A DNA stretch of 64,000 nucleotides from Sycon ciliatum (lineage: Eukaryota; Porifera; Calcarea; Leucosolenida; Sycettidae). The notes under the pieces were generated by a model that worked only from the letters and a program-made list of their open reading frames with translations, was not told where the DNA came from and searched no databases. Location: contig NW_027044871.1 of the NCBI RefSeq assembly GCF_964019385.1, positions 62,001 to 126,000 of the forward strand, written 5' to 3'. The translations under genes were made by a program, and so were the position numbers. Of this stretch, positions 31,950 to 64,000 are shown piece by piece (the stretch's first letter is position 1; every line of letters starts with the position of its first letter).

Positions 31950-32055
31950 AGTCGTGGTTATCAGTTACCGGTGAAAGTATTGGATGCTGCGTTCCAACGC
32001 ATTCATAAGCCTCATCTTTGCGTTCAAAAGGAGAGTGTTATCTTGTCGTGTTAGT
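31950..32055 (+). pseudogene. C-terminus of a PLE GIY-YIG endonuclease
   Basis: Reads RGYQLPVKVLDAAFQRIHKP then HLCVQKESVILS and stops. The LEA glutamate is D here. The 3' region that follows aligns with 15425-15830 (minus). Confidence 0.65.
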
Positions 32056-32837: not shown

Positions 32838-32979
32838 TGTGTGTGTGGGGGGGGGGGATGGGGTGTGTGTGTGTGTGGGTGGGTGTGTGCGCGCGTGTGT
32901 GTGGGTGTGTGGCTGGGTGTGCGTGTGTGTTTGTGCGTTCGGGCATGCACACATGTGTGTGTGTGTGTGTGTGTGTGTG
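32838..32979 (+). repeat. (GT)n-rich tract
   Basis: GT repeats with G runs and a GCGC patch; the last ~28 bp are pure GT. RLE copy H starts right after it. Confidence 0.95.
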
Positions 32980-33486: not shown

Positions 33487-33488
33487 AC

Positions 33489-33516
33489 ATATATATATAT
33501 ATATATATAATATATG
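33489..33516. repeat. (AT)n tract: empty site for the gamma array
   Basis: Ten AT units then AATATATG. At the matching place in the distal duplicate a 1,076-bp net longer sequence is present. Confidence 0.95.
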
Positions 33517-33769
33517 TATTTGTTTGTGTGCACGCACGTGTGTGTGTTGCAGACGCATGTGAGTGAGAAAAGAAGCATTCCTCACACTACATGTATACGA
33601 GGATTAGCGCCAAACAACTGAAGTGACAAAACGTTTGTTTTGTTTGTTAGGATTTCAAGGTTTTTCACCCGATTCTTGTAGTCTCTCCATAATTATCATA
33701 CTGTTTTCACAGCCATTTAAAAAGTAAATAAAATAAATTTGGACCCCAAAAAATCGGCGCTGTAAGAGA

Positions 33770-34776
33770 AAATCTGCGGGGGCTCGTACAAATCCAGTGC
33801 ATTTGCAGATTGCGATGCTTGTGCAACCGAAGGCCTAGCATTTGCGATGGCAGTAACTTCACTGCTGCTGCAGCAGCCGTACCGAGCACAGGAGCAGCGC
33901 ATACACGCAGAGTGCCTCACTCGACGCCTGGAACAGTGGAGGCTCGGAGACATCAATGGCCTGATGTTGGAATCACGCACTATCCAGCGTCAACTGCACA
34001 ACGGGTCTAAGCAGCACGGCCAGAGACGTGACGATGGTGCATGTCCCTTTGCATCAATGGTGTATGACGGCAAGATCACATCAGCCTCGAGAATGCTGTC
34101 GGAAAGCGACTCTGCAAAGCCACTGGACCTGCAAGAGGTCATCGACGGGAAAACAGTGCGTGATATCCTGGGCAAGAAGCACCCTCCGGCAGAGCCACTC
34201 AGTGAATCAGCCCTGCTAGGGGATGGCCAGCATCCACCAGAGACACACTGACTCTGTTGTCTTCTCCGGTCTTAACGGTCGGGTAATCAGCCAAGCTGCA
34301 CTGCACACACAAGGCGCAGCGGGCCCATCTGGGCTGGATGCAGCAGGGTGGAGACGGATGTGTACCTGCGCGGAGAATCCCTACCACCTACGTGGACCCT
34401 TCCTCTCTAGAACTAGAAGCATATGCGGCGTGTCGATTGAGTCCGCTTGACAAAAACCCTGGAGTTCTACCTATTGGCATCGGTGAGGTTGCAAGACGGA
34501 TCATAGGGAAGGCTATCCTGCAGGTCATTGGCTCAACCATCACGCAAGCCGTTGGCGGCCGGCAGCTTTGTGGAGGCCAGGAGAGTGGTATGGAAGCCGC
34601 CATCCATGCTATGCGAGTGACGTTTTCCGAAGAGGACACGGATGCCGTGCTATTCGCCGATGCTTCAAACGCATTCAGCCGGCTGAACAGGGCCACCTGC
34701 ATGCGGAACATTCGTCACCTGTGCCCGGAGTTCGCTGCTACTATCATCAACACCTACAGCTCGCCTGCAAGGTTGT
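33770..34776 (+). pseudogene. RLE element copy I: N-terminal region and first half of RT
   Basis: 33666-34251 reads FADCDACATEGLAFAM, GKITSASRMLSE and GKKHPP; after a frameshift, 34223-34330 reads VVFSGLNGRVISQAAL and AAGPSGLDAAGWRR; after another, 34338-34776 reads SPLDKNPGVLPIGIGEVARR, GQESGMEAAIHAMR, VLFADASNAFSRLNR (RT motif with the first catalytic Asp) and INTYSSPARL. It ends at the BEL/Pao insertion; the RT continues at 40258. Same protein family as copies A-G, and the only one here with the RT fingers. Confidence 0.85.
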
Positions 34777-35118
34777 TGTTGTGAACCCTCTAAGATTCTC
34801 TAAATTGTCAGGATCGTACGACCACACGGCACGAGGACAACACTTTTCCTTTAGACAGTATATTTCACTTCATCGAATAATCAACAATGAACACTAGTAA
34901 CACCAGCTATTTATAGCATGCAAAAACAGCGTACATGCAAAAAACATACGCATATAAAACTGGACATAACAGCGTTTACAGCAAAACGCACACAACGCAT
35001 ATAGCGTATGCCATGCAGCAACATCAGTGGTACGGCGGAGTCGAAATACAACATTTCAACGAATACAATGCCATAAGCGCGAAGGCCTTTCCCAATTGAG
35101 AACTGGTGGTTTACAACA
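34777..35118 (-). repeat. BEL/Pao 3' LTR
   Basis: Begins TGTTGTAAACC on the minus strand and ends GTTCACAACA. Confidence 0.97.
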
Positions 35119-35131
35119 TTCTCCCCACCAA
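35119..35131 (-). promoter_or_regulatory. Polypurine tract of BEL/Pao
   Basis: Minus strand GGTGGGGAGAA directly abuts the 3' LTR. Confidence 0.75.
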
Positions 35132-35354
35132 AGGGCTTCTCACCGCCGTACAACAATGCACAAAAGTCAAAAACGATCCGGGGCTCTGACTACACGCCCA
35201 GAACGCGTCATCTCCTGCTGCCGTGGTGGTGGTAACGGTGCTGACGGTTCAAACGCTGGCTGCAGAGGGACGATAGCAGGTTGAGCGGTATCGGCAAGCC
35301 CAGGAGCCACGTCCTGTGACGATACTTCTTATGGCACTAACCTTTGGATCGGCC

Positions 35355-36760
35355 TCAACAGGGTACTGTGGGGGTGGTCCGACTGAGGTAACGCAATCTC
35401 GATGACATCTGCGCAGCGTCCAGGGTACCTGCTGGCTTCTCTGACGACATCCAGATGTTACCCATCATCATTGCAGGGGTTACTGGTGGCTCATCCAGGC
35501 TATCAGACACATTAGTTAGCGGACGACTATTCACCACTGCTTCAACCTCATACAAGAGGGTCTCAAGCTCCTGGACCTTCAGAAACGCTGTTCCCATTAC
35601 CTTTTTCAAGGCACTCTTCACTGTACCAACCATTCGCTCATAGAAGCCTCCATGCCATGGTGCAGCTGGAGGATTGAACATCCATGGCACACTCAGTTTG
35701 TCAGATGCCGCCTTGAACGTTGTAGCGTTGTCAGACCTGATCCGAGACGGCAAACTACGTCTCGCGACAAACTTCCGAAATGCCATCAAGAATGACTCGG
35801 TACTTAAACTATCGACCACCTCCAAGTGAACTGCTCTGGTGGTGGCACACACAAACAATGCTATCCATACCTTCGGAAATGACTCACCACGGCGCACGTA
35901 CAACGGACCAGCATAGTCGATGCCGGTAGTTGCGAACGGCCTCTCGTGAACAACTCGGTCTTCCGGCAGCGGCGGGCAGACTTCTGAGGCAGCCTTAGCC
36001 TTGTAGCGGCGGCATGTAACACATCGCTGAGTAATGTTGCGTAGCGCCCGTCGACCACCGATAATCCAAAATTTCTGACGGATGAACGACAAGACTCCTT
36101 CTACACCTTGGTGCATCCTTTCAACATGCATTTTCTCCAACAGCAACTCGGTCAGATGATGTTTGCCTAACAGGACTGGGTGCTTGGCTCCATACGCCAA
36201 CTCGCTGTGCTTAAGTCGTCCCCCGACTCTGAGCACTCCATGCTCATCCAGAAACGGTGCAAGCTGATACACCTTCGACCCAGGCTTCACTGGTTGACCT
36301 TGCTTGATCAGCTCAAGATCCTCAGCGAAACATGCGGCTTGAACGATGCGGTACAATACGTTGTCTGCTGCAAAATAGAGTTCAGCACGAGGCTCAGTGT
36401 GCTTCCACTGCAACATCCGAGTCACCATGCCCTGTGCCCTCGACCATTTATTGAATCGGAGCCACCATTCCTTATCAGATTCTCGACTACAGGTGGTGGC
36501 TGACACTCGTACTTCTACACTGGACTCATCTGTAGCTGCGGTTGAGGATGCGGTGGGCCAGTCATTGGGCTCCGTGATCCAGGTTGGTCCACCCCTCCAG
36601 AACGGACTACGGGTCTGCTGTGCACTACTCCCACGCGACGGTAAATCTGCAGGGTTGTGAAGGCCCGGGCAATGGTTCCACACAATACCGACCTTCTTCG
36701 ATATCTCTTGGACTTGACTGACGCGGTTAGCCACAAATGTTTTCCATTTGTACTTGGATT
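35355..36760 (-). pseudogene. BEL/Pao integrase region
   Basis: From the RNase H end (HCPGLHNPADLPSRG) through the zinc-binding part (H-x3-H...CVTC, around residues 205-245), to the DDE catalytic core: Asp in TTGIDYAGPL (about 271), Asp in RSDNATTF (about 332) and Glu in GGFYERM (about 367). All three are present. It joins target DNA to element cDNA ends. The frame is shifted relative to the RT-RNase H ORF near 36735-36760, so a polyprotein is not made from this copy. The C-terminus (RYLSRTTPTVPC) looks cut short. Confidence 0.9.
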
Positions 36761-38086
36761 ACTGATCCAATGAACGGTAGTGAGACTGTCAGTCCAGCCA
36801 TAGACTTGCGTGACGGTCACACGCAGCTCCTTCACCACAAACTCAACGTAGTGAGCCGCTAGACATACTGCTTGTAACTCAAAGCGGGCTAACGTGGGCG
36901 GAGACACAGGTGCCACTTTGGCCTTGGCAAATACCAAGTGCGACTGTCCATTGACGACTGCATACAAACAACATCCAAACGCTTTCTCACTGGCATCGGC
37001 GAAGGCATGAAGCGCAATCGGCGTGTCAAGATTGCAGCAAATCCAACGTGGTATGTCAATGCTCACCACTTCGGCCAACTCTCCCCACCATTGCGCACAT
37101 GCGGCTGAGATGCCATCAGGCAACCTATCATCCCAGTCGCCTCCGACTTTCCAGGCTTGCTGTAGCAGTATCTTTCCCGGCACAACTGCCGGTGCTGCTA
37201 GACCTAGCGGATCAAACACTGATGCAACACACTTGAGGAGGGATCGCCGGGTCCAAACAGACGGCCTATCGGACTCGCCTAGCGCTGCTATGCTGAGCAA
37301 GTCATCACTGGTTTTCCATTTCAGACCGAGGACTTTATCTCCGGCCTCTGGATCGCACGGGATTTCGTTGCCTCGCCACTTGCGTAACTCCATGCCAGAA
37401 TCCGTAAGCACACGCACGCTGAACTCTTGCATCTCCTTGGCTTCCGAGGCATTTGAGACACTAGAGACCAAATCGTCAACGTAGAAACTCGTGAGCAAGA
37501 GATCAATACGATCTCGCTCTTTGGGTGCAGACAACGCCCGTAGCTCCTTCAAGTGATGCTGAATCACCGCAGTAAGCATGTACGGCGAGCAGTTCACGCC
37601 AAATGGCAGTTTCGTTAGCCTCCAGGTTAACAGTTCATCGCTGTCGCTTCGACCGGGCCACAAGAAACGCAGGTACGGACGGTCTTCGGGATTAACCGCG
37701 ACCATGAAAAAAACCTTGCGGATGTCCGCTTGCAGCGCGCTCTTATATTCACGGAACCGTAATAGCATACCTGCGAGACTCGGCAATAGCGACGGTCCAG
37801 GGTCAACCATGCCGTTCAACGACTTGCCATCTGGAGCCGTCGCCGAGGCATTGAACACCACTCTTAACTTCGTGGTTGCAGCGTGCTCGCGGAATACACC
37901 ATGATGCGGTACATAGTACCCGGCATTGCTCTCACATGGCTCCAGCTCAATTGCTCCAAGCTCGCGGTACTCCCGGATCAGCACACCATCATAGAGCGCA
38001 CGCTTCCCATTCCTCTTCAGCTTTTCAAGAAGCCGCGTTGCGATGACTCTAGCTTGAGCAAAGTTATCCGTTGGGCGACGCTCATT
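36515..38086 (-). pseudogene. BEL/Pao reverse transcriptase and RNase H
   Basis: Pao-type RT: LRVVFNASA, ALQADIRKVFFMV (first catalytic Asp), LPFGVNCSPYML, SFYVDDLVSS (catalytic YVDD, about residue 170 from 37984) and SVFDPLGLAAP; then the Pao/RNase H part with HAFADASEKAFG and YGWTDSLTTVHWI. It is in the same frame as gag-protease, separated only by one TGA at 38087-38089, and becomes frameshifted before the integrase. The catalytic residues are intact, so damage is recent and slight. Confidence 0.92.
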
Positions 38087-39880
38087 TCACCACAAGAGAC
38101 CCACTTGGTACCCGCTGCCCTGGCGACATAGCGGGAACGATGGCAGGTGCTGATGTTGTTCTGGAGGTTCATCCAACTGCCATAGTTGTTCAATTTGGGC
38201 TGTGACACATGACACGGTCACCGGCTGACTGTTTCGACTTGGTGCAGACGCTGGACCAGATAATACATTACCTATCTCTGTGTTCCACACCGTCTCACCA
38301 TTAACTTCCTTCTTGCTGTGCAGTACCGCGTTTATATAGTCTGCACCAATCAGCAAATGTATTTCGTCTGATGTCCCTTGTTGAGGCTTGTCACTCAGCT
38401 CTACTCCCCAACTGTGCCACTGCGCAATGGTCTGCGGACTTGCGCACTTCAAGTCCAGCTCAAGCGTTGGTTTCACGAACGCGCATACCCGAATGCTAGC
38501 GGAGCTACCCTGGATCGTGATGGCGTACTTATCCATGCGCTGTTGGGTTGGTTCCGCGCCGAACGGCTTCACCTCTACATTTTCAACCCCAACGTGTTCT
38601 GCATCGATTGCTGACACCAACGCTGCAGTCACGAATGACGCCTCAGCACCCGAGTCCAGGAACACGCGAACCTTCGCGTTTCGAGTTCTTCCCTCAACTC
38701 GTGCCACTCCGGTCATCAGCCGCACACTTGGCGAGTGTAGACAGCACGACCCAACATTCTTCTCCGTAACTATCTCAGTCGGTTTCTCCCGGCTGTAACC
38801 TGCTCTATCCAACACATCATGTATTAGCAGGTGGTGTTTCCTCTGGCATTTCGTGCATCTCGGGCCTGACCGACATTCTCTGGCCATATGGCCATACTTA
38901 AGGCAGTTCCAGCAGAGTCTCTCTCGCTGCAGAAAACCCTTTCTCCCTTCCTGTGGCAGCGACTTTAGCTGCTTCTCTGCATCTGCGACCGATATCGCCA
39001 TGCACTGTGCCGACGCCGTGGGCCTTGGCACGGATCGTTCTACTGGCTTCCTGGCAGTATCACCCTGTCGTCCGTGCGCGACCTGGTAAGACGCGCCGTG
39101 CTCCTGTACCTGGCGCAGTGACATCCCGTAGCACTGTCGTTCGACCAGGTACGTCTTCATCTCAGGTCCGCATTGCTCCAAGATTACCTGCTTTGCCATT
39201 GCTTGCAGCACCGGGGACATTTTACCTATATCGGCGCTATACTTGGTGTCCACCTCGCCATCTTCTGTCATAGCGAGTGTGGCCCACACCTCTACCTCTC
39301 GGCAAACACGGACAACGTATTGATGAAACGACTCATCTGACCGCTGCTTTCCTGTCAGCAATGTCTTCCACGCTTTATCCGGAGTCTTTCCGAGCGAGGC
39401 AAGCAACTCTCGCTTTGCTTCCTCGTAATTGTTGCATCCAATACATATCCTCTCCGCTTTGCTACCCGATAGCGCGATGCGCAGTCGCAGCAGCCATTCG
39501 CTTTCTTTGAACTCGTTCTTGGAACAGATGTCCTCGAACAGGTCAAGATAACGCTCCAATGGCTGCGTTCCATCATATGAGGGGATTTTCATCAACGGTT
39601 GACGCCCACCGCTGTGACTGGGAGATTCCTCTGTACCTCCCATCGCGGCGTTACCCTCACCCTCATGCGCATTGGCGATGCGCTCGTTAATCTCCTTTAG
39701 TGTTTTGGCAAACTCGGTGCGGAGCGCCTCCTCTCGCCGTCTGGCACTGCGATCCTCACGCTCCGCGTACTGTTGGAGCCTCTGCTCCACATGTACCTTC
39801 AACAACTCGCCTTCTAATCCTAACCGCTCTCCATTGTCGATAAAGCTGGCTTCCAAATTGTTCCATAGTTCCTCTGCCAT
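38087..39880 (-). pseudogene. BEL/Pao gag and aspartic protease
   Basis: 597 codons from ATG 39880. Order: coiled-coil-like N-terminus; gag core (PSYDGTQPLERYLDLFEDIC...LLRLRIALSGSKA), of the type seen in BEL/Pao polyproteins; two zinc knuckles, CWNCLKYGHMAREC and CTKCQRKHH (about residues 325-350); aspartic protease with FLDSGAEASFV (about 408-418). Gag packages RNA; the protease matures the polyprotein. The ORF ends at TGA just before RT; BEL elements normally read through in one ORF, so I treat this as a nonsense mutation. The same TGA is in the distal copy. Confidence 0.92.
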
Positions 39881-48772: not shown

Positions 48773-49019
48773 TATTTGAGAAAAGTGCAAAAGTGAACAG
48801 AGGTCGCGTCCTGAACTCCTGATGTCGTCACCTCGGAAGCCACGCATGCGAAAACCATGCATGCATACTTGTTTTTAATCTGAAAAGGCCGTTGTTTTTC
48901 CTTTGAAAATAGGGTGGAACCGAGCATAATTCAGCATAATTCAGCATATTTGTTGGCATAATTATTGTGGCATGATCAAAAGCATTATTTGACGATTGGC
49001 CGTGCATAGTCCACCAATG

Positions 49020-49291
49020 GCTACTAGCTTCCGTATAATTATACCAACACTTGGCAACAGCCTTCCAACTTACAATCCCCGTAATGCTATGCTACTAGCT
49101 ACCGTATATACCAACACTTGGCAACAGCCTTCCAACTTACAATCCCCGTAATGCTAGGCTACTAGCTACCGTATATACCAACACTTGTCAACAGCCTTCC
49201 AACCTACAATCCCCGTAATGCTATGCTACTAGCTACCGTATATACCAACACTTGTCAACAGCCTTCCAACTTACCTGGAAAGCCTTCTGAG
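49020..49291 (+). repeat. 67-bp tandem repeats, distal
   Basis: Duplicate of 24209-24480. Confidence 0.9.
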
Positions 49292-50039
49292 TAACATATG
49301 CGTCAGCAAAACAATCCCCGTAATGCTATGCTACTAGCTATCGTATGCATGTAGCCGCATACACTGCCACTGCGTGCTAGGACTGCATCATGCAGACAGA
49401 GTGCAGCGCGGACTGTTTAGTTCAGTGCTGTGCTAGATGATAGTACTGTCGGTGAACGAGTACCATACCAATGTTATGTACATGACTTGTATCAAGGGTG
49501 CATAACCCGGGGTTATGAAATCTTGCTAGTGTCCATGGCATTGGCTGGACCTTTTTGGCGACGACTGTACAATCATGTACTTTGAAGTAAGGCACAATAT
49601 TATTATTATTATTGTAGAAAGGAAAAGGACATATGGATACGAGTTAAAAGTAACTCTTCATCACTGTAACATGATACTATAATATACAGTCAGAAAGTGC
49701 AATAACTAGGCACAAAACTGACAGCGTACTGAGATATTCGACGTCCTGACAACTAGCTTCAACACGTCTCCGTAGCGCTAACCGACAGCCTTCCAATTTG
49801 GGAGGTTCAAGGTTATGGAAAGAACAAAGAGGGGAAGGCAAGCGCAACGAAAACGAGCAAAAGCTACAGTCCCAGCGGAACAAAGAATGTCGATTGTTAC
49901 TGGACGATGACGAGACCAGTACGATATTTGACAAAGCGGTCTAACTACAATTCGAAGAAGCTACGGAGATGTGTTGAAGTTTTGTGCCTAGTTATTGCAC
50001 TTTCTGAGTGTATCACGTTACAGTGATGGAGAGTTACTC

Positions 50040-51103
50040 CTAAGGGGGCAGCCTACCCATAAATTTCATAGAGCATTCAATTGACCGTAACTTTGGTGTT
50101 TCTCAATGGATTTGAGTGAAATTTTGACCACACACTCCTGCCACTATGCTGGCCCTCAAGACATGATTTACAAGTTCTTGCGCCTCACTGACAGGCTTTC
50201 TAGGCCGGAGAAACTCAAATTTCCGGCATAGTGCCACGGTGTGCGAGCCACCCAGGAGCCAATCAAATTTACAATTTTTTCACATTTTCGTGCCCATTCT
50301 GTCCGTGCGCGGGACCCAAACCTAAAACAAGTCCACAAGCAGCCATGGGTGGTGGGGTAGGGCCCCTCAACGTGGCCCTGCAATCTGTCACAACGGAACG
50401 AGTGGGCGTTCTCTCACAGACTCCCACAGACCCAAGTCAATTTTTGAATTTTTTTAGGTTTAGCACGTGCTACGAGGTCGTACCTTTGATACAACATCCA
50501 GTGCTGGGACGGCCACAGCAAGCCATTTCCACAGCGCTGTACACCAAATCGAGGTTACCTTCAGAAACCGGCAAAGACAACCACTCACGTTCCACTGGCA
50601 CTACTGCCTAGTACTGACTGAATCCTACCTGACTTATTTACACGACTCAAACTTGCCAGAGTCACTAAATCAACGTCAACTACAATAATGAAGCCACATA
50701 TGTGCAACGTCACGAGGGTGCTGGCAAAAGTCCTGCTGCACGGCGGCGGGCTTCGCCTGCCGCCGTGCAACCCAATACATGGTTTTTTAACGTGATTTTT
50801 TGGACTTTGTTTGGACTTGGAGCAAAATTCTGCACACTTTCGCGCGTTTCCATGATACGACAAGTTGCGCACGGTCTGCTCACGTTCAAATACAGTGCTG
50901 CCAACAAATGACAGCGTGCAACAAAAAAATATTTCCTTGCAAGGGCACATTTTCGGCCATAACTCTCCAACGGCTGGTCGGATCGGGAAACAATTTTCAG
51001 AGTATTTGCAACTATTCATAATCTTTCAACTGACGTAGCACTCAATAATTATGAATTTACAAATTCGATTTTCAGCGAATTTTTGGGTAGTCTGCCACCT
51101 TAA
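50040..51103. mobile_element. TTAA-type MITE copy 1, distal
   Basis: Duplicate of 25229-26292. Confidence 0.8.
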
Positions 51104-51357
51104 CTCGTATCCATATTATGTCTTTTTCCTTTCTATATTTATTTATGGCTCAACATCTGAGTTTCAAATTATTATTATTATTATTTATACAAAATAGAAA
51201 GACCAAAGAACTACAAGTTACGCTATACTGTCTACTAACACCACCAGTTACTAAACAATCAGCTCATGCGATAACATTGCACGACACTGACCGACGGTAC
51301 TGACGTTCTACATTATTATTATTATTATTTAAACTCGGATACTGAGCCAGTAATAAA

Positions 51358-51557
51358 ATGTAAAAAAGAGAAGAAACACATGAGAACGAGTTATGCAGCA
51401 ACTATCCACGACTGTAACGAGATGATAAACGGTCAGAAAGTGCGATAATAGTTGTGTGCCCTATTATCGCACTTTCTGACCGTTTATCATCTCGTTACAG
51501 TCGTGGATAGTTGCTGCATAACTCGTTCTCATGTGTTTCTTCTCTCTTTTTTTACAT
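51358..51557. repeat. Long palindrome, distal
   Basis: Duplicate of 26547-26746. Confidence 0.9.
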
Positions 51558-51593
51558 ATTATTATTATTATTATTATTATTATTTAAATAGGC

Positions 51594-51753
51594 GTCGAGG
51601 CGACAACAGTTTTAGAATTGTGATCAACAGAACGAGCTGAACCGACATTTCACAAAGGCTTTTTTGTATTCAAAAAGCGAGAGGATACGAAGGCAGTGAA
51701 GAACATGGAAGAAAGAAAAAATGTGATATAGAAGAAATGATGAACAAAAAATC
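51594..51753 (-). mobile_element. PLE3 3'-end fragment, distal
   Basis: Duplicate of 26786-26945. Confidence 0.75.
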
Positions 51754-52229
51754 TTAAACTCGGATGTTGAGCCAATAATAAATGTAGAAAGGAAAAGGAA
51801 ATACATGTAAATATACGAGTTGAGAGTAACTCTCCATCAGTGTAACCAGAAAAAGCTTCCCTCCCGAAAGCTTCCCTTTCTTTACTTATCTTTGATATTT
51901 ATGACCCACCCAAGTTGGGTGGTGTGCTGCTTTGCTGCTTCGAATTGTAGTTAATTTAAACCGCTGTGTCAAATATCCTATTGGTCTCGTCATAGTCCAG
52001 TAGCAATCGACATTCTTTGTTCCGTTGCGACTGTAGCTTGTGCCCATTTTCGTTGCGCTTGCCTTCCCCTTTTTGTTCTTTCCATAACCTTGAACACATT
52101 GAAAATGATAGGAAATTTCACACACATTAGTTCTTCCTTTTCTCTACATCACTAAATCCCCTAGCATCATCCTGAATACCAAAGAGCAACCGAAATCTGC
52201 GATCATGTACCAACCACGACACATCCCAC

Positions 52230-52608
52230 TTGTCCTTAGGGCTCATGAACGTATGCAATCTCCGCTTCAAGGTCCATGCTCTAACCGCACTGATCCCCAA
52301 GTACGACATCCTGTGTATAGCCGAAACATGGCTAAACAGCGCGATCTCTGACGGAGAAGTACAAATCCCAGGTTATAACCTTACCAGATGTGACCGCGAA
52401 AACAGGACTGGAGGCGGTGTATGCATCTACTACAAATCATCACTTCCCATCACGCCACAGCCAAATCTCCGCCTAGACGGCGTGGAAACCGTCTGGATAC
52501 TGCTGCGATCGAAGTCCCAGAAGCACCTGTTCGGATGTATATCGTCCCCGCAGGAGCCTGTCGCGTACTGTACTCTCCTGGACTCTGCCTTCCATAGAGC
52601 GTCTCTGG
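52230..52608 (+). pseudogene. APE-type endonuclease part 1, distal
   Basis: Duplicate of 27422-27800, again interrupted by the hAT-like MITE. Confidence 0.8.
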
Positions 52609-53275
52609 TAGGCTTTTCCACATTATGTTTTGCATTATATTTTGCATCTTGGGGGTAAAAATGAATCCCCGTTGTAAAATGCATCTTTCGTGATTTTGCC
52701 AGATTTTCTTCAAAAGCAACAACGTTTGCGTGGTTTTGCCAGATTTTCTTCAAAAATAACAAATTTGGCGTGATTTTTGCCAGATTTTCTTCAAAAACAA
52801 CAAGACAAGATAGTATTAGTTAGTTCAAGTTGCAAGTGTTAGCTAAACTTTAGCCTACAGGCATTTTCTTCTGCTGGCAAGACTTGACCTTGCCCCGCAC
52901 CTGACGTAACCTGACTCTTGTCAGTCTCGAAATATGCCTGGCACTGGGGCCGGCAGGCGGCAGTGCATGATGATGTGCATGCATGCACGGGTACATGTCC
53001 TTTAGGGTTCCCTGAGCTGATGCCAACATGTACATGCTTCGAATCAGGGAGTCGTAAAATACCGGTATTTTACGACTCCCTGCTTCGAATAAATTTGGCA
53101 GCCATCTTGTTGCCATGGCAACGGGTGAATAATTTTCGCACATGGGGTGATTTTTTGAATTTTTTTAGATTTTTTTCAAATCTATCCATTTTTGAGAATA
53201 ACATCATTCCCCCAAAAAATCGAGTTTTACATCCACATCTTTCCAATATTTTTTCGAATAATGTAGAAAAGCCTA
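52609..53275. mobile_element. hAT-like MITE, distal
   Basis: Duplicate of 27801-28468, one base shorter, with the same GTCTCTGG flanks. Confidence 0.88.
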
Positions 53276-53485
53276 GTCTCTGGTGACAACATCAATGACC
53301 GTTGTTATGTAGGAGACTTCAATGTGGACATGTTCCGAGGCCAGAGAATGGCGCAACGTCATCACCTTGAAGATGTCGCATCTGCTTACAGCCTCACAAA
53401 CCACGTGCTGTACCCCACAAGGATTACACCTCTCTGTCCCCAAGGTAGCACCATAGATTTAGTCCTTTCCTCAGAGAACTCAGTG
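53276..53485 (+). pseudogene. APE-type endonuclease part 2, distal
   Basis: Duplicate of 28469-28678. Confidence 0.8.
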
Positions 53486-53498
53486 TGAACTCAGTGCA

Positions 53499-53987
53499 AT
53501 GCAAAATTGCATTGCCTTCCGCAAAAAGATTAAAGCTGCAATTTTGAACTGCTATCCTACAGTATCCCCCATTGTAATTTATACAATCAGACCCGCATTC
53601 AGGTCTATCGCGAAGGATGTTTCACCAACTCTTGAAAATAGTAATTTTATTTATAAGTATGCGTGTCGCTGTGAGAGGACGTACGTTGGTGAGACATGTC
53701 AGCGATTCTCGGAAAGGATCAAGCAGCATATCCCAGGCAAGCTGTACAAGAAGCCGCCTGACAAACGTGTGGCAACAAGTGATAGCGCCATCACAAAGCA
53801 TTTGCAGGCGCAACCTGAATACATCCCGCAGGAACGCAACAGCAGCTTCAGTGTCATCACACCAGCCCGGAACAGCGCGCACGGATTCACACTGGAGGCG
53901 CTGTGCATTCGCAGTTTGAGGCCAGAACTGTGTCGACAAAAGAAGCACATCAAGGTGCTACGGCTGTTCAAGCTGACACCGGACTGA
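53499..53987 (+). CDS. PLE C-terminal fragment with GIY-YIG endonuclease, distal
   Basis: Identical in protein sequence to 28692-29180: complete GIY-YIG motif set, RT missing. Confidence 0.8.
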   Translation: MQNCIAFRKKIKAAILNCYPTVSPIVIYTIRPAFRSIAKDVSPTLENSNFIYKYACRCERTYVGETCQRFSERIKQHIPGKLYKKPPDKRVATSDSAITKHLQAQPEYIPQERNSSFSVITPARNSAHGFTLEALCIRSLRPELCRQKKHIKVLRLFKLTPD

Positions 53988-54039
53988 CAACTTTATCACG
54001 TGTTTGTTCTGGTACTGCATTCCCCTCATGTGTTGTTTC

Positions 54040-54516
54040 TAGGCCTTGACGGATTATGCTAATATTGTCGTGAAATTATGCTTTTCGCATTGCTGAAAAA
54101 ATTGCAGAAGTATGCTTTTTTATGCTAAAAGTTATCATATTATGCCGCATTATGCTCACATATGCTGCTAATGCATAATGGTTCTGTGCAAAATAACAGG
54201 GGAATTATTTTGTAGAGGGCGTTGTACTGTAGTAGCAAAAGTTCAACGGGGTCAACGCACCGTCCGACCTAGCTACGACCATCACTGATTGTAGTGGACT
54301 GGACATGTTATCAAGGGAGTGGTAAACCTACAACTTCCTAGTGCATCTACTTGTACTTGTACTTGTAGAACATGTACAACTGTATGGAATTTGATGCGAA
54401 CAGGCGGATTATTACCATTTATGCGATTCGTATGCAATTTGCCTCGAATTATGCGATTATTCGATTTTGGTAGGAATTATGCGAAAAATGATGCTAGCAT
54501 AATCCGTCAAGGCCTA
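54040..54516. mobile_element. GCATAAT MITE copy 2, distal
   Basis: Duplicate of 29233-29709. Confidence 0.8.
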
Positions 54517-55619
54517 TATGGAATCCTCTTTCAATTATGTTTCTAAAGTCTATTTCTCAAAAAAGCAATTCGTAACAAGAATAGTATTTCGGCCAGGTTT
54601 TGCCCCAAAAGCACTGAATTGGGAAAGACCATCAAAATCCAGGCCATTTGATCCTGCCGGCAACAGTGCATTGTACGGTTCGAACCCCAGTTCAGGTACC
54701 CTTTTTGGACCGTTTTTCAAATTTCAAACTTCGCAGCACTGCACTGTGTACGATAAAATCTTTTTTAAAAATTCGCCAAATACGGGAGCTCGCCAGAGCC
54801 AGGGCCCATCTTTTTGTGAATGGACTGAAAGCATTATTTTTGTCTAAACCGAAAGATTATGCCGACCTTACACGTTGGAATCCGTATATTATGCCGGAGC
54901 ATAATTTTTTGACGAAATCCCAAGATTATGCAAAATATTGTGCCGGCATAATCCGTCAAGGGCTAGTAGCTAGTAGCATAGCATTACGGGGATTGTAAGT
55001 TGGAAGGCTGTTGACAAGTGTTGGTATATACGGTAGCTAGTAGCATAGCATTACGGGGATTGTAAGTTGGAAGGCTGTTGCCAAATGTTGGTATATACGG
55101 TAGCTAGCAGCATAGCATTACGGGGATTGTTTTGCTCACGCATACTTAGAAGGCTTTCCAAGTAAGTTGGAAGGCTGTTGCCAAGTGTTGGAGTGCCTGA
55201 CCGAGATGTGCTGAAGCTGACTGCCAGTAAGTGGTAGAGGACGTCAGCACCGTTGCGTTGGTCAGTGTCGTGCAATGTCATCGCATGAGCTGTTTGGCCA
55301 GTAACTGATGGTGTAAGTGGACGACTGTGTAGGGTAACTTGTAGCTCCTTGGCCCTTTTGTCTTTCCTATACAGTATCATCACGATTGCCATTGCGATTG
55401 TGTACGTTGCACATTCACTGTTCCTCGACAAGTCACTACTGTAGGAGTGTTCACGTCATGCGCAATATTCCTCTCAATACATGTATTGCCAAGGGTGGAT
55501 GGCGTTATCTCGCTAGCACAACACTGCCAACTGTTCCTCGTGCCGGCATCACTCAGGCTGGACAACGTAGCCTCTCGAATGCGTCAGACTTGGATCATTT
55601 GCATCACCTGCGTGACATC

Positions 55620-56301
55620 GCCAAGGGACCGGCGGATTCTGCTCGAAAAGATGGCAGATTCTGCTCGAAAAGCAGTTAAGGTGGCAGACTACCCAAAAAA
55701 TCGCTGAAAATTGAATTTGTAAATTCATATTGAGTGCTACGTCAGTTGAAAGAGCTTGAATAGCTGCAAATTCTCTGAAAATTGTGTCCCGATCTGACCA
55801 GCCGTTCAAGAGTTATGGCCTAAAATGCGCCCTTGCAAGCAAAGATTTTTTTGTTGCACGCTGTCATTTGTTGGCAGCACTGTATTTGAATGTGAGCAGA
55901 CCCGTGCGCAACTTGTCGTATCTTGTCGTAAGTCCAAAAAATCATGTTTTTGAGCCAGGTATTGGGCTGCACGGCGGCGGGCAAAGCCCGCCGCCGTGCA
56001 GCAGGACTTTTGCCAGCACCCTCGTGACTTTGCAGATATGTGGCTTGATTATTGTAGTTGACGTTGATTTAGTGACTTTGGCAAGTTTCAGTCGTGTCAA
56101 GAAGTCAGGTAGGATTCAGTACTAGGCCATATGAAATTTATGGGTGGGCTGCCCCTTGGCAGAACCATACAAACCTTATGGCGGGCAATTCCTCGAATTC
56201 TGCTCCATTTTTTTTATCCACTTACCAAACATGCATGAAACCTACCAGAAAAAGTACCGAATTCTGCCAATTTTTTGGCCGGCAGAATCCGCCGGACCCT
56301 A
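55620..56301. mobile_element. Nested MITEs, distal
   Basis: Duplicate of 30813-31494, with the TTAA MITE at 55676-56159 inside. Confidence 0.65.
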
Positions 56302-56756
56302 GCCAAGGGTCGCCCGCAATGGCAACATCTCTGCAACCGATATCATCATTAATTGTTATCCCTAATGACTAAAACATTCAGTTGATGGCCTATCACTGAA
56401 ATATTATCATCTCTAAAATCACTGCAGTATCATTTATCACTAATGGATGAAACATTAATTTTCTCGTCCCAGCCAACGGAATGCGAATTCCTGTTCATGT
56501 GTTTTAGCTACCATAGTACGCAGAGTACATTATACATGTACATTATAAGGATATACGCTTCAGGCTATTTTTTTTGTTTTTGTTCGACACCTCTGTTTGA
56601 CACCATTTGATGCAGTGTCTCTACCATGTGGGTGGACGATAGTGGGTACGGGAGATGTGGGGTGTGTTTCGACCGCGTTAGTATTTCGGTATCTCGTGCT
56701 GAATGTTGCCAAAATTAATGTATTCTGATTAATGTTTCTCCGTTTTGTGCCGTGGA

Positions 56757-56862
56757 AGTCGTGGTTATCAGTTACCGGTGAAAGTATTGGATGCTGCGTT
56801 CCAACGCATTCATAAGCCTCATCTTTGCGTTCAAAAGGAGAGTGTTATCTTGTCGTGTTAGT
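56757..56862 (+). pseudogene. PLE GIY-YIG C-terminus, distal
   Basis: Duplicate of 31950-32055. Confidence 0.65.
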
Positions 56863-57089
56863 CTGGTTATCGTGTTACTCTGGCCTTGTTCGGCCAGAAT
56901 TTTTTCACTAGTATTGTTTCATACTTGAATTTTGTCCCCTTGGCGTGTTTGATTGTTATCTTTCACGCATATGGATTATGGTGTCTTTCAAGAATACCTT
57001 ATGATACTTTTTTGGCATTTTTTAGGTGGTGTTTATCACTATTGATCTTTTATAGTAGCCAGTGTTGCAATTTGTTAATTTGTACAACC

Positions 57090-57131
57090 ATGCTTCCTGA
57101 CGAGCGCTGTGGGAAAGCTAGTTTGATGCAT
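57090..57131 (+). ncRNA. Hammerhead, PLE3-like, distal
   Basis: Duplicate of 32283-32324. Confidence 0.55.
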
Positions 57132-57784
57132 TTTATATTTTTCATCGTTTCCTTTTATTGTTCTTCACAGTACATTTCCATCACAATTATTTCTTTGTCC
57201 ATCACCACTTTACATTTCAATAAAACCTTCGTAACAAGTCATGTCGCTTCAGCTGATTCTGTTTGTTGCCATCCCAAACAAGACAATCATGTTGTTTTTT
57301 CTAATGAACATGTCTGGGATAGAGGTAGTCACCGTTTTGTATGCTGGCACACGCGGGTTTTCTCATTCTTTGTTTCCTTGCTTTGCAAGCTGGTTAACCA
57401 CCCTCCCTCCAGTTGTGGATCTTGGTGTTATGTTTGTATTGAATGTTCTCATGCTGGCCGGTGTAGTGAATTTTGTTTCAATTCTGCTGACATGTTTGTA
57501 AAGGCTGTAAATGCTGCATGGTGTGCCTCATGCAATGCACTGGAGTTCTAAAATGGTGCATCCAGCCTTGCTGTGCCTGTGCCTGCATTTCTTGTCTTCT
57601 TGCTGTGGCTGTCGCTGCAGTTGTTTGTTAGCTGGTGGAATGTGTGTGTGTGTGGGGGGGGGGGATGGGGTGTGTGTGTGTGTGGGTGGGTGTGTGCGCG
57701 CGTGTGTGTGGGTGTGTGGCTGGGTGTGCGTGTGTGTTTGTGCGTTCGGGCATGCACACATGTGTGTGTGTGTGTGTGTGTGTG

Positions 57785-58291
57785 CAGGGAGTGAACAGGG
57801 TAGACCGTGGAGCTTTCACTCCTATCGTTTTCAGTACTTCAGACATGTGCGGCAAAGGGATAACATTGTTTTTGAAGGCACCTGCATCGCAACTGGTTGA
57901 GAAACATAGCGAGCTGGCTTACTCGGTAGTAATAGGCGAGCTTCGAAGCCTCCTGTCGTTTACCCTGCTACGTTGGACCATGATATGCTTCCGCGGGTGC
58001 AGGGGGTCATAATCCCCCTGAGCGAGACCACGGCTTCTTGCACTGCTCCTTGTCCAGGTAAGCGGCCTAGACTTTCAACATTGTTAGTGCTTACGTTAGG
58101 TGATATTTTTTGCCGCGTGACCGCCAACTGTCTTTACTTACCATCTTCTTGGATTTGTTTCGGGTTTCAGTTCCCGTATGGCAACACAGGATTGGGCTTT
58201 TTTCACATTCTTGGTGTTTTGATCATTTTTTTGTATTTTATGTCATATGTAAGCACATTGGCTTTGCCCGTACAAGAGGCCTTTTATGTGT
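57785..58291 (+). mobile_element. RLE copy H, distal
   Basis: Duplicate of 32980-33486; ORF end at 58012. Followed by (AT)n into which the gamma array is inserted. Confidence 0.8.
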
Positions 58292-58323
58292 ACATATATA
58301 TATATATATATAATATACTCAAT

Positions 58324-58369
58324 CTGCGGACAGCATGCTGTTTCGTTCTTTTTGAACTCATCAGCGCAG
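58324..58369 (-). ncRNA. Hammerhead ribozyme gamma array, unit 1
   Basis: Helix I CTGCG/CGCAG, CTGATGA, helix II GTTC/GAAC, GAAA, palindromic helix III (ACAGCATGCTGT), cleavage at GTC. Complete core. Confidence 0.88.
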
Positions 58370-58551
58370 CACAGAGAAAATGAGGCCGAACCTGATAGCA
58401 ATGGAAATATAAATTTCCAATCAGGCCCGAACGTACCTTGCCAGAGTGCTCAAACTGACAAGTCAGTGAGCTCTGCATAATGCAAACAGCAAAGGCACTA
58501 CCCCACGCAAGAGTGCTCAACTGCTACAAGAGCAGGAGCGAAATACTCAAT

Positions 58552-58597
58552 CTGCGGACAGCATGCTGTTTCGTTCTTTTTGAACTCATCAGCGCAG
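58552..58597 (-). ncRNA. Hammerhead ribozyme gamma array, unit 2
   Basis: Identical to unit 1. Confidence 0.88.
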
Positions 58598-58779
58598 CAC
58601 AGAGAAAATGAGGCCGAACCTGATAGCAATGGAAATATAAATTTCCAATCAGGCCCGAACGTACCTTGCCAGAGTGCTCAAACTGACAAGTCAGTGAGCT
58701 CTGCATAATGCAAACAGCAAAGGCACTACCCCACGCAAGAGTGCTCAACTGCTACAAGAGCAGGAGCGAAATACTCAAT

Positions 58780-58825
58780 CTGCGGACAGCATGCTGTTTC
58801 GTTCTTTTTGAACTCATCAGCGCAG
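58780..58825 (-). ncRNA. Hammerhead ribozyme gamma array, unit 3
   Basis: Identical to unit 1. Confidence 0.88.
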
Positions 58826-59007
58826 CACAGAGAAAATGAGGCCGAACCTGATAGCAATGGAAATATAAATTTCCAATCAGGCCCGAACGTACCTTGCCAG
58901 AGTGCTCAAACTGACAAGTCAGTGAGCTCTGCATAATGCAAACAGCAAAGGCACTACCCCACGCAAGAGTGCTCAACTGCTACAAGAGCAGGAGCGAAAT
59001 ACTCAAT

Positions 59008-59053
59008 CTGCGGACAGCATGCTGTTTCGTTCTTTTTGAACTCATCAGCGCAG
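59008..59053 (-). ncRNA. Hammerhead ribozyme gamma array, unit 4
   Basis: Identical to unit 1. Confidence 0.88.
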
Positions 59054-59235
59054 CACAGAGAAAATGAGGCCGAACCTGATAGCAATGGAAATATAAATTT
59101 CCAATCAGGCCCGAACGTACCTTGCCAGAGTGCTCAAACTGACAAGTCAGTGAGCTCTGCATAATGCAAACAGCAAAGGCACTACCCCACGCAAGAGTGC
59201 TCAACTGCTACAAGAGCAGGAGCGAAATACTCAAT

Positions 59236-59281
59236 CTGCGGACAGCATGCTGTTTCGTTCTTTTTGAACTCATCAGCGCAG
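59236..59281 (-). ncRNA. Hammerhead ribozyme gamma array, unit 5
   Basis: Identical to unit 1; the unit is cut short at GAGCTCTGCAT (59389). Confidence 0.88.
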
Positions 59282-59650
59282 CACAGAGAAAATGAGGCCG
59301 AACCTGATAGCAATGGAAATATAAATTTCCAATCAGGCCCGAACGTACCTTGCCAGAGTGCTCAAACTGACAAGTCAGTGAGCTCTGCATATATATGTAT
59401 TTGTTTGTGTGCACGCACGTGTGTGTGTTGCAGACGCATGTGAGTGAGAAAAGAAGCATTCCTCACACTACATGTATACGAGGATTAGCGCCAAACAACT
59501 GAAGTGACAAAACGTTTGTTTTGTTTGTTAGGATTTCAAGGTTTTTCACCCGATTCTTGTAGTCTCTCCATAATTATCATACTGTTTTCACAGCCATTTA
59601 AAAAGTAAATAAAATAAATTTGGACCCCAAAAAATCGGCGCTGTAAGAGA

Positions 59651-60657
59651 AAATCTGCGGGGGCTCGTACAAATCCAGTGCATTTGCAGATTGCGATGCT
59701 TGTGCAACCGAAGGCCTAGCATTTGCGATGGCAGTAACTTCACTGCTGCTGCAGCAGCCGTACCGAGCACAGGAGCAGCGCATACACGCAGAGTGCCTCA
59801 CTCGACGCCTGGAACAGTGGAGGCTCGGAGACATCAATGGCCTGATGTTGGAATCACGCACTATCCAGCGTCAACTGCACAACGGGTCTAAGCAGCACGG
59901 CCAGAGACGTGACGATGGTGCATGTCCCTTTGCATCAATGGTGTATGACGGCAAGATCACATCAGCCTCGAGAATGCTGTCGGAAAGCGACTCTGCAAAG
60001 CCACTGGACCTGCAAGAGGTCATCGACGGGAAAACAGTGCGTGATATCCTGGGCAAGAAGCACCCTCCGGCAGAGCCACTCAGTGAATCAGCCCTGCTAG
60101 GGGATGGCCAGCATCCACCAGAGACACACTGACTCTGTTGTCTTCTCCGGTCTTAACGGTCGGGTAATCAGCCAAGCTGCACTGCACACACAAGGCGCAG
60201 CGGGCCCATCTGGGCTGGATGCAGCAGGGTGGAGACGGATGTGTACCTGCGCGGAGAATCCCTACCACCTACGTGGACCCTTCCTCTCTAGAACTAGAAG
60301 CATATGCGGCGTGTCGATTGAGTCCGCTTGACAAAAACCCTGGAGTTCTACCTATTGGCATCGGTGAGGTTGCAAGACGGATCATAGGGAAGGCTATCCT
60401 GCAGGTCATTGGCTCAACCATCACGCAAGCCGTTGGCGGCCGGCAGCTTTGTGGAGGCCAGGAGAGTGGTATGGAAGCCGCCATCCATGCTATGCGAGTG
60501 ACGTTTTCCGAAGAGGACACGGATGCCGTGCTATTCGCCGATGCTTCAAACGCATTCAGCCGGCTGAACAGGGCCACCTGCATGCGGAACATTCGTCACC
60601 TGTGCCCGGAGTTCGCTGCTACTATCATCAACACCTACAGCTCGCCTGCAAGGTTGT
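59651..60657 (+). pseudogene. RLE copy I, first half, distal
   Basis: Duplicate of 33770-34776 with the same frameshifts. Confidence 0.85.
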
Positions 60658-60999
60658 TGTTGTGAACCCTCTAAGATTCTCTAAATTGTCAGGATCGTAC
60701 GACCACACGGCACGAGGACAACACTTTTCCTTTAGACAGTATATTTCACTTCATCGAATAATCAACAATGAACACTAGTAACACCAGCTATTTATAGCAT
60801 GCAAAAACAGCGTACATGCAAAAAACATACGCATATAAAACTGGACATAACAGCGTTTACAGCAAAACGCACACAACGCATATAGCGTATGCCATGCAGC
60901 AACATCAGTGGTACGGCGGAGTCGAAATACAACATTTCAACGAATACAATGCCATAAGCGCGAAGGCCTTTCCCAATTGAGAACTGGTGGTTTACAACA
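60658..60999 (-). repeat. BEL/Pao 3' LTR, distal
   Basis: Identical to 34777-35118. Confidence 0.97.
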
Positions 61000-61235
61000 T
61001 TCTCCCCACCAAAGGGCTTCTCACCGCCGTACAACAATGCACAAAAGTCAAAAACGATCCGGGGCTCTGACTACACGCCCAGAACGCGTCATCTCCTGCT
61101 GCCGTGGTGGTGGTAACGGTGCTGACGGTTCAAACGCTGGCTGCAGAGGGACGATAGCAGGTTGAGCGGTATCGGCAAGCCCAGGAGCCACGTCCTGTGA
61201 CGATACTTCTTATGGCACTAACCTTTGGATCGGCC

Positions 61236-62641
61236 TCAACAGGGTACTGTGGGGGTGGTCCGACTGAGGTAACGCAATCTCGATGACATCTGCGCAGCGT
61301 CCAGGGTACCTGCTGGCTTCTCTGACGACATCCAGATGTTACCCATCATCATTGCAGGGGTTACTGGTGGCTCATCCAGGCTATCAGACACATTAGTTAG
61401 CGGACGACTATTCACCACTGCTTCAACCTCATACAAGAGGGTCTCAAGCTCCTGGACCTTCAGAAACGCTGTTCCCATTACCTTTTTCAAGGCACTCTTC
61501 ACTGTACCAACCATTCGCTCATAGAAGCCTCCATGCCATGGTGCAGCTGGAGGATTGAACATCCATGGCACACTCAGTTTGTCAGATGCCGCCTTGAACG
61601 TTGTAGCGTTGTCAGACCTGATCCGAGACGGCAAACTACGTCTCGCGACAAACTTCCGAAATGCCATCAAGAATGACTCGGTACTTAAACTATCGACCAC
61701 CTCCAAGTGAACTGCTCTGGTGGTGGCACACACAAACAATGCTATCCATACCTTCGGAAATGACTCACCACGGCGCACGTACAACGGACCAGCATAGTCG
61801 ATGCCGGTAGTTGCGAACGGCCTCTCGTGAACAACTCGGTCTTCCGGCAGCGGCGGGCAGACTTCTGAGGCAGCCTTAGCCTTGTAGCGGCGGCATGTAA
61901 CACATCGCTGAGTAATGTTGCGTAGCGCCCGTCGACCACCGATAATCCAAAATTTCTGACGGATGAACGACAAGACTCCTTCTACACCTTGGTGCATCCT
62001 TTCAACATGCATTTTCTCCAACAGCAACTCGGTCAGATGATGTTTGCCTAACAGGACTGGGTGCTTGGCTCCATACGCCAACTCGCTGTGCTTAAGTCGT
62101 CCCCCGACTCTGAGCACTCCATGCTCATCCAGAAACGGTGCAAGCTGATACACCTTCGACCCAGGCTTCACTGGTTGACCTTGCTTGATCAGCTCAAGAT
62201 CCTCAGCGAAACATGCGGCTTGAACGATGCGGTACAATACGTTGTCTGCTGCAAAATAGAGTTCAGCACGAGGCTCAGTGTGCTTCCACTGCAACATCCG
62301 AGTCACCATGCCCTGTGCCCTCGACCATTTATTGAATCGGAGCCACCATTCCTTATCAGATTCTCGACTACAGGTGGTGGCTGACACTCGTACTTCTACA
62401 CTGGACTCATCTGTAGCTGCGGTTGAGGATGCGGTGGGCCAGTCATTGGGCTCCGTGATCCAGGTTGGTCCACCCCTCCAGAACGGACTACGGGTCTGCT
62501 GTGCACTACTCCCACGCGACGGTAAATCTGCAGGGTTGTGAAGGCCCGGGCAATGGTTCCACACAATACCGACCTTCTTCGATATCTCTTGGACTTGACT
62601 GACGCGGTTAGCCACAAATGTTTTCCATTTGTACTTGGATT
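61236..62641 (-). pseudogene. BEL/Pao integrase region, distal
   Basis: Duplicate of 35355-36760: DDE residues present, same frameshift relative to the RT. Confidence 0.9.
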
Positions 62642-63967
62642 ACTGATCCAATGAACGGTAGTGAGACTGTCAGTCCAGCCATAGACTTGCGTGACGGTCA
62701 CACGCAGCTCCTTCACCACAAACTCAACGTAGTGAGCCGCTAGACATACTGCTTGTAACTCAAAGCGGGCTAACGTGGGCGGAGACACAGGTGCCACTTT
62801 GGCCTTGGCAAATACCAAGTGCGACTGTCCATTGACGACTGCATACAAACAACATCCAAACGCTTTCTCACTGGCATCGGCGAAGGCATGAAGCGCAATC
62901 GGCGTGTCAAGATTGCAGCAAATCCAACGTGGTATGTCAATGCTCACCACTTCGGCCAACTCTCCCCACCATTGCGCACATGCGGCTGAGATGCCATCAG
63001 GCAACCTATCATCCCAGTCGCCTCCGACTTTCCAGGCTTGCTGTAGCAGTATCTTTCCCGGCACAACTGCCGGTGCTGCTAGACCTAGCGGATCAAACAC
63101 TGATGCAACACACTTGAGGAGGGATCGCCGGGTCCAAACAGACGGCCTATCGGACTCGCCTAGCGCTGCTATGCTGAGCAAGTCATCACTGGTTTTCCAT
63201 TTCAGACCGAGGACTTTATCTCCGGCCTCTGGATCGCACGGGATTTCGTTGCCTCGCCACTTGCGTAACTCCATGCCAGAATCCGTAAGCACACGCACGC
63301 TGAACTCTTGCATCTCCTTGGCTTCCGAGGCATTTGAGACACTAGAGACCAAATCGTCAACGTAGAAACTCGTGAGCAAGAGATCAATACGATCTCGCTC
63401 TTTGGGTGCAGACAACGCCCGTAGCTCCTTCAAGTGATGCTGAATCACCGCAGTAAGCATGTACGGCGAGCAGTTCACGCCAAATGGCAGTTTCGTTAGC
63501 CTCCAGGTTAACAGTTCATCGCTGTCGCTTCGACCGGGCCACAAGAAACGCAGGTACGGACGGTCTTCGGGATTAACCGCGACCATGAAAAAAACCTTGC
63601 GGATGTCCGCTTGCAGCGCGCTCTTATATTCACGGAACCGTAATAGCATACCTGCGAGACTCGGCAATAGCGACGGTCCAGGGTCAACCATGCCGTTCAA
63701 CGACTTGCCATCTGGAGCCGTCGCCGAGGCATTGAACACCACTCTTAACTTCGTGGTTGCAGCGTGCTCGCGGAATACACCATGATGCGGTACATAGTAC
63801 CCGGCATTGCTCTCACATGGCTCCAGCTCAATTGCTCCAAGCTCGCGGTACTCCCGGATCAGCACACCATCATAGAGCGCACGCTTCCCATTCCTCTTCA
63901 GCTTTTCAAGAAGCCGCGTTGCGATGACTCTAGCTTGAGCAAAGTTATCCGTTGGGCGACGCTCATT
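62396..63967 (-). pseudogene. BEL/Pao RT and RNase H, distal
   Basis: Duplicate of 36515-38086, including the TGA immediately upstream (63968-63970). Confidence 0.9.
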
Positions 63968-64000
63968 TCACCACAAGAGACCCACTTGGTACCCGCTGCC

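Follow-up and report, generated by a model that had tools for sequence, protein, structure and literature searches.

Hammerhead retrozyme inserts with a common RNA-3' junction at AT tracts, and a paired empty site, in a 64-kb window of the Sycon ciliatum genome

Metazoan non-LTR retrozymes were defined by Cervera and de la Pena in 2020 (PMC7229834), and the sections of that paper available here propose Penelope-like helpers for them from shared hammerhead ribozymes (HHRs), tandem copies and co-existence. According to the available portions of the review PMC7761336, retrozyme repeats show no conserved motif that would betray the helper. The HHR satellites of newts are now held to be retrozymes and the schistosome W-elements to be putative mobile elements, as stated in excerpts of PMC7229834 and PMC8490949. 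For a Penelope-like element that carries an HHR (Frangieh 2024, PMC11167929), the accessible text reports that cleavage falls in AT-rich DNA, that both target strands are extended and that reverse transcription begins internally; in vitro, the substrate is mainly RNA that has not been processed. Neither a common insertion end, nor an AT-tract target, nor an empty/filled site pair is described in the available sections of PMC7229834 or PMC7761336, and a search of the literature, with most subscription journals outside its scope, brought up no description of a fixed junction for retrozymes, most papers being covered by their listing entries.

The window (the whole 64,000-nt stretch of Sycon ciliatum DNA analysed here) contains a tandem array that is a metazoan non-LTR retrozyme, an already-known kind of element. 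We assign it to a family termed F1 and delimit it as follows, a slash marking the junction between flank and element:

58294..58317, no strand: left flank of the (AT)n target, next to the array's RNA 3' end, ...TAATATA/CTCAATC (sequence, junctions)
58318..59388, RNA sense on the minus strand: F1 retrozyme array, 4.7 x 228 bp, units 1-4 identical (TRF)
59389..59397, no strand: right flank of the target, ATATATATG, next to the array's RNA 5' end (sequence)
58318..58376, minus strand: HHR of the RNA-3' terminal array unit, CTC...GAG with the outer stem I pair (Rfam HH9, motif scan, covariation)
from 58546, 58774, 59002 and 59230, minus strand: HHR repeats in the array, every 228 bp (Rfam HH9, motif scan)

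TRF places the tandem array at 58315-59391, with a period of 228, 4.7 copies and 100% matches; units 2-4 show no differences from unit 1, and the fifth unit is cut at 165 bp. An earlier sequence-only reading of this DNA had described 4.7 head-to-tail 228-bp units, each with a hammerhead, and both points are confirmed, by the TRF matches and by an HHR in 5/5 units. Its extent of 58316..59389 captured the array but not the exact boundaries, since the element-specific sequence covers 1071 bp (58318-59388) and five more bp of AT have no assignable side. The designation as a retrozyme is likewise borne out by the type I HHR, the tandem 228-bp units and the lack of a long reading frame through the array: one of the 45 window frames of at least 150 aa enters it, and stops at 58383. 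As the period of 228 equals 76 codons, an open frame of the unit would appear among the listed frames. GC content is 47.4% for F1 and 51.5% for a second family, F2, described below. Relative to shuffled sequences, folding is more stable for the F1 sense monomer (z -2.9) and also for its antisense strand (z -2.0).

The Rfam model Hammerhead_HH9 matches all five array units on the minus strand, with E-values of 4e-6 to 8e-5 when a 1.7-kb stretch is searched and of 1.5e-4 to 2.9e-3 for the same five HHRs in the whole window. No family reached its Rfam gathering score, and all HH9 matches in the array fall below gathering, so the HHR call draws on these sub-threshold matches combined with the core, the stems and the covariation. 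A lax Rfam scan of the whole window also returned matches to miRNA families. Each array HHR comprises an outer stem I (CTC with GAG), stem I (CTGCG with CGCAG), the core CTGATGA, stem II (GTTC with GAAC), then GAA, and stem III (ACAG with CTGT). Stems II and III are closed by loops and stem I is open, so the topology is not type III, in which stem III is open. Cleavage presumably follows GTC, on a type I consensus and a core numbering that we take to be the standard ones.

A motif scan of the 64-kb window gave 14 rows, representing 12 distinct full type I HHR sites, five of them in the array, against 0-2 HHR sites in each of 20 Markov-simulated windows. The scan site at 15627 on the minus strand has the core CTGAGGA and was set aside as probably due to chance. 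For the covariation analysis, six HHRs with five distinct sequences were scored against the presumed type I consensus. Within the helices 98.8% of cells are paired, a level that none of the 500 shuffles reaches, and the same holds for the covariation score of 0.350 (0/500). Four pairs are changed on both sides, but 50 of the 500 shuffles reach the same number, and 389 of 500 reach the observed number of further pair types, leaving two of the five measures (two-sided changes and pair types) not outstanding. The canonical hammerhead was absent when the monomer and the HHR region were folded to minimum energy without constraints.

The array lies in one of two near-identical duplicates, and the other has an (AT)n tract at the corresponding place:

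23962..38119, plus strand: duplicate copy 1, without the array, the part matched in the window (self-BLAST)
48773..64000, plus strand: duplicate copy 2, with the array, reaching the end of the window (self-BLAST)
33489..33516, no strand: empty counterpart site, (AT)n in copy 1 (sequence, offsets)

Left of the array, 23962-33507 and 48773-58312 share 99.87% identity, with six mismatches and three gaps in 9546, and on its right 33510-38119 and 59391-64000 are 100% identical over 4610 bp. All six mismatches between the copies are confined to 24698-28198, with none in 28199-38119, where two dinucleotide tracts differ in length from copy 2. The offset between the copies changes from 24805 to 25881 across the site, which gives a net insertion of 1076 bp, that is, the 1071 element-specific bp and the five AT bases without an assignable side; these extra bases could represent microhomology or a short duplication of the target. 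The earlier description of near-identical duplicates, one with the array and the other with (AT)n only, is thus upheld at 99.87-100% identity and with a 1076-bp difference. The pure AT tract measures 21 nt at the empty site and 19 nt at the filled site, where the left flank is one dinucleotide shorter, implying that no tail of the template was added. An exact-removal test for a target-site duplication, comparing filled and empty sites, yielded 0 placements, since the two copies do not have the same AT count, and any such duplication at the array amounts to at most 5 bp, ATATA, within the AT tract.

Because the two flanks share ATATA, a gain by copy 2 and a loss by copy 1 are both possible. The sequence-only proposal that a multimer was inserted into (AT)n is still the best reading, and it is strengthened by two additional inserts, A and B, with the same end and AT-rich flanks; the copies may be paralogues or haplotypes, and the source of the multimer may have been an RNA circle, a linear concatemer or growth at the site itself. 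Its phrase 'strong evidence for recent mobility' is fair for an empty/filled pair and falls short of proof. We regard the array as a real, recent-looking retrozyme insertion.

Other repeats accompany the duplicates. Immediately before copy 2, positions 47232-48774 form a 1.5-kb, nearly pure triplet tract, (ACT)514. Some other long triplet tracts adjoin partial retroelement ORFs with a common FFDVRVTHP...LRW..TCFRGCR-like ending, as if those retroelements inserted at, or were cut off at, triplet repeats. A BEL/Pao-type retroelement occupies 35355-39928 on the minus strand (Peptidase_A17 at 4e-39, RVT_1 and integrase zinc-binding), and the portion of it inside the duplication is present again at 61236-63967.

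The two additional inserts have the following parts:

20206..20567, plus strand: insert A, family F1, with an antisense left end CTCAATCTGCGGACAGCA... and a sense body at 20235-20567
20283..20341, plus strand: first HHR of insert A, identical to the array HHR
20511..20567, plus strand: second HHR of insert A, 3'-terminal, with a core A changed to U and stem II changed on both sides
16215..16341, plus strand: sense copy of insert B, family F2, with an HHR at 16266-16325 and the end ATTGGG/TATATATA
16358..16693, minus strand: minus-strand 1.4-mer of insert B, family F2, with HHRs at 16358-16417 and 16599-16658

Insert A matches the array at 95% over 338 bp, about 1.5 units. Its right end is in sense orientation (...CGCAGATTGAG), and both outer ends read GATTGAG/TATA, with the RNA 3' terminus facing outward on both sides. 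The changed core base of its terminal HHR is what we take to be A14. The two HHRs of insert A are unlike each other, and the core of the terminal one is broken, so this insert was not copied from a uniform circle, which speaks for a mixed template. An inverted repeat with 162-bp arms that are 99.4% alike (19717-20194) adjoins this insert. Insert B spans 16215-16693 and represents the second family, with a unit of 241 bp; the 3' termini of its sense copy and of its minus-strand 1.4-mer face each other across TATATAATATAATATA. At 16326-16341, the terminal GCATTGGG/TATATA of the plus copy appears twice in succession, 16 nt apart, as if reverse transcription had started, stalled and restarted at one place.

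All five RNA-3' junctions at the three loci (the array, the left and right ends of A, and the plus and minus ends of B) follow the pattern GTC^NNCAG(N)ATTGRG/TATAT. Past ATTGRG, internal units continue with TATTTCGC in F1 or TATCACGC in F2, as opposed to TATAT at the ends. Counted from the HHR cleavage site, the RNA 3' end lies 11 nt (F1) or 12 nt (F2) further on, exactly where the outermost stem I pair (CTC with GRG) is located. The BLAST boundaries of the RNA 5' ends are different in each insert (78 and 133 for F1, 139 and 155 for F2). Each unit offers five (F1) or six (F2) UAU places. F1 also contains a single TATA (index 145), which suits an AT primer better but does not coincide with any of the three F1 ends. 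If all UAU places were equally likely, the probability of five hits on the observed one would be roughly 1 in 4500, a figure that serves as a guide only, the ends being not fully independent: F1 and F2 are related and both ends of A come from one event, so the five ends do not amount to five independent trials. The junction evidence covers three loci in one 64-kb window.

When public sequence collections were searched with the junction pattern, nine loci were found, eight of which have no CTGANGA within 70 nt upstream. The ninth has no tandem repeats and, by eye, no hammerhead, and was taken as chance. The HHR pattern occurs at 14 viral-contig loci, in contexts that are HHRs of other sequence, and the F1 pattern at 0 loci in a collection of genome contigs.

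Pure AT tracts of at least 8 nt begin at these positions of the window:

16326, 20192, 20568 and 20579: tracts at inserts A and B
58294 and 59389: tracts at the array
33489: tract of the empty site

All seven tracts of this length in the window lie at retrozyme ends or at the empty site (7/7), and 100 Markov sequences of the same make-up hold a mean of 1.1 and a maximum of 5. A tract of this length lies no more than 10 nt away from four of the five RNA-3' ends; the minus end of insert B has none within 16 nt and adjoins TATATAATATAATATA. Shorter AT tracts of 6-7 nt number 25 in the window, including three near ends. The presence of the tract in copy 1 without the array favours a choice of target, unless copy 1 once held the array.

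The fixed 3' ends, variable 5' ends, AT flanks, two-sided insert, mismatch-free units and absence of a tail together point to target-primed reverse transcription with an internal start. We think it probable, with some reserve, that a Penelope-like or similar enzyme copied retrozyme RNA (circular in the case of the array) in this way, primed from AT tracts and with a fixed internal starting point. HHRs would cut the transcripts, and the monomers would be closed into a 228-nt circle. An endonuclease would open an (AT)n tract, and the freed ...ATA-3' end would pair with the UAU just 3' of HHR stem I (AUUGRG/UAU). The reverse transcriptase could then circle one RNA 4.7 times, giving identical units, and AT microhomology would join the far end. 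A circle is the simplest template for the array because a cleaved linear monomer cannot yield 4.7 identical units across five cleavage sites; an uncleaved linear concatemer is a possible alternative. At insert A, both target strands would prime at one RNA site and leave the same terminus outward on both ends, and the geometry read from its sequence, at this one locus, is as expected if they did. The HHR with its stem I might thereby have a double role, as the ribozyme that makes monomers and as the landmark that fixes the start of reverse transcription.

Several other histories could produce parts of this picture. The two copies could be haplotypes, or a false assembly duplication, with the array heterozygous or inserted during assembly; copy 2 does start where the 1.5-kb (ACT)514 ends, a likely assembly break, and the identity of 99.87-100% extends across 14 kb. 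A heterozygous insertion is an insertion all the same, however, and an assembler would not create a fixed end common to the array, A and B. We consider this a serious, if somewhat unlikely, possibility, and it is compatible with target-primed reverse transcription as the best explanation. The template, too, might have differed: a linear read-through RNA bearing its parent's (UA)n flank as a tail would account for the common end of F1 and F2 and for the AT tracts. The fixed end would then be inherited, with no choice made by the enzyme, and a tail of this kind would survive at insert A, where the terminal HHR is broken. Against it, no tail was added at the filled site, whose left tract falls short of the tract in the empty copy, and the core letters are intact in three of the four judgeable 3'-terminal HHRs (array, B plus and B minus), by which a tail would be cut off. 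We judge a read-through template unlikely, though it deserves some weight.

The number of units may have changed after insertion, if a retrozyme of about 1.7 units was inserted and the array later grew in place to 4.7 by unequal exchange or slippage. Such growth also yields identical units and the same two ends, so that unit identity cannot tell it apart from multimer insertion, and it can point to insert A with about 1.5 units and to the minus arm of B with 1.4. It would nevertheless require two events after the copies separated, a brief period given that 28199-38119 is free of mismatches, and we consider it unlikely. Less probable still is that the array predates the duplication and that copy 1 lost it by deletion between the terminal ATATA repeats. 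The left flank ends in ATATA, the right flank is ATATATATG, and a 5-bp microhomology deletion would yield the empty site, but every element-specific base would have to go precisely, whereas insertion with a short AT duplication is one event, of a kind seen at two further places in the window. A common satellite DNA that spreads through DNA recombination, and holds a hammerhead by chance or as a relict, would be tandem and without a long reading frame, as is the array; yet the HHR has compensating changes, a fixed junction recurs at three loci with AT flanks, and an inverted insert such as A is unexpected from satellite growth, all of which makes this origin very improbable.

For target-primed reverse transcription of the retrozymes, a candidate for the kind of helper is found in the window itself:

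11612..12607, plus strand: reverse transcriptase fragment of Penelope-like type, candidate helper kind (RVT_1 E 3e-5, below cut-off)
8647..9180, plus strand: two HHRs in repeated flanks, 96% alike and 480 bp apart, upstream of the reverse transcriptase fragment (motif scan)

The best 120 of the 6134 homologues of the fragment include a Sycon ciliatum protein at 71%, the sole entry with a name among them, and an ENA protein at 97%. In the Sycon ciliatum homologue, RVT_1 (1.2e-7) precedes a weak GIY-YIG match that stays below cut-off (0.0031), and RVT_1 then GIY-YIG is the Penelope domain order in the available text of PMC11167929. Its matches among solved structures comprise eight sequences with E-values of 0.014-0.82, all of them reverse transcriptases or AbiK, and pin down no family. 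Judged from the fragment and from the domains of its homologue, a Penelope-like sequence appears to co-occur with the retrozymes here; by analogy with described systems, a Penelope-like enzyme would be the most likely helper for this RNA.

The HHR flanks at 8647..9180 are Penelope-type by position and form, though this is not proved. The repeated flanks as a whole (8333-9348, with HHRs at 8647 and 9127) directly follow (CT)114, not an AT tract. A further type I HHR candidate (9780-9840, at 9795) also lies upstream of the Penelope-like fragment, and the segment 10443-14076 that holds the fragment is flanked by inverted copies of one sequence (96%, 259 bp). The ORF at 28656-29180, found again at 53463-53987, resembles by eye what we take to be the GIY-YIG end of a Penelope element. 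We do not count it as a GIY-YIG endonuclease: it has no match in Pfam, and none of its 11 homologues lists such a domain; one homologue (P0129) lists PF26215, as reverse transcriptase matches do.

The main value of the present data lies in the RNA-3' junctions, which go beyond the array and the empty site of the earlier reading. The stem I junction, the AT target, the two-sided insert and the empty/filled pair lead to concrete predictions on the retrozyme helper and on the form of its RNA that can be checked in any long-read sponge, coral or mussel genome, and a pair without an added tail bears on circular versus read-through templates. As a tentative extension, one that we take seriously without leaning towards it, a Penelope-like enzyme may in metazoan retrozymes at large read the base of stem I, use (AT)n ends of both target strands as primers at the UAU next to it and copy an intact circle repeatedly, with the HHR as both cutter and landmark. 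If the landmark reading is true, one RNA structure both makes the circle and sets the integration end.

The elements described here resemble the metazoan non-LTR retrozymes, as characterized in the available sections of PMC7229834, in their type I HHR, in a unit size within 170-400 nt (here 228 and 241), in occurring as dimers to multimers, in having no long frame and in sharing their genome with a Penelope-like sequence. GC content is below 50% in those retrozymes and near 47-51% here, with F2 at 51.5%, and their target-site duplications, given in the same sections as more than 4 bp when present, compare with at most 5 bp and an ambiguous case here. Plant LTR retrozymes are likewise non-coding HHR repeats that make circular RNA, but in the excerpts of PMC7229834 and PMC7761336 they are distinguished by a type III HHR, about 700 bp between HHRs, LTRs, a PBS, a PPT and a 4-bp target-site duplication. 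The HHR satellite DNAs of newts and schistosomes consist, as here, of tandem type I HHR repeats, and come from other hosts, with units of other lengths, such as about 330 bp in newts (PMC7229834 and PMC8490949, available sections).

The Penelope-like element of PMC11167929, as far as its accessible text describes it, encodes a reverse transcriptase and an endonuclease, whereas the retrozymes here are non-coding. Its reverse transcription begins within an AC-rich stem-loop that is not homologous to the cleaved DNA, in contrast to the UAU/ATA match proposed here, and its distance from HHR cut to start is also different. Against a Penelope helper stands the putative Penelope-type flank in the window, which adjoins (CT)n and not (AT)n. 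What the described element and these retrozymes appear to share is an HHR that lies upstream of the internal point where reverse transcription begins, a target rich in AT and perhaps the extension of both strands, the last suggested here by the geometry of insert A.
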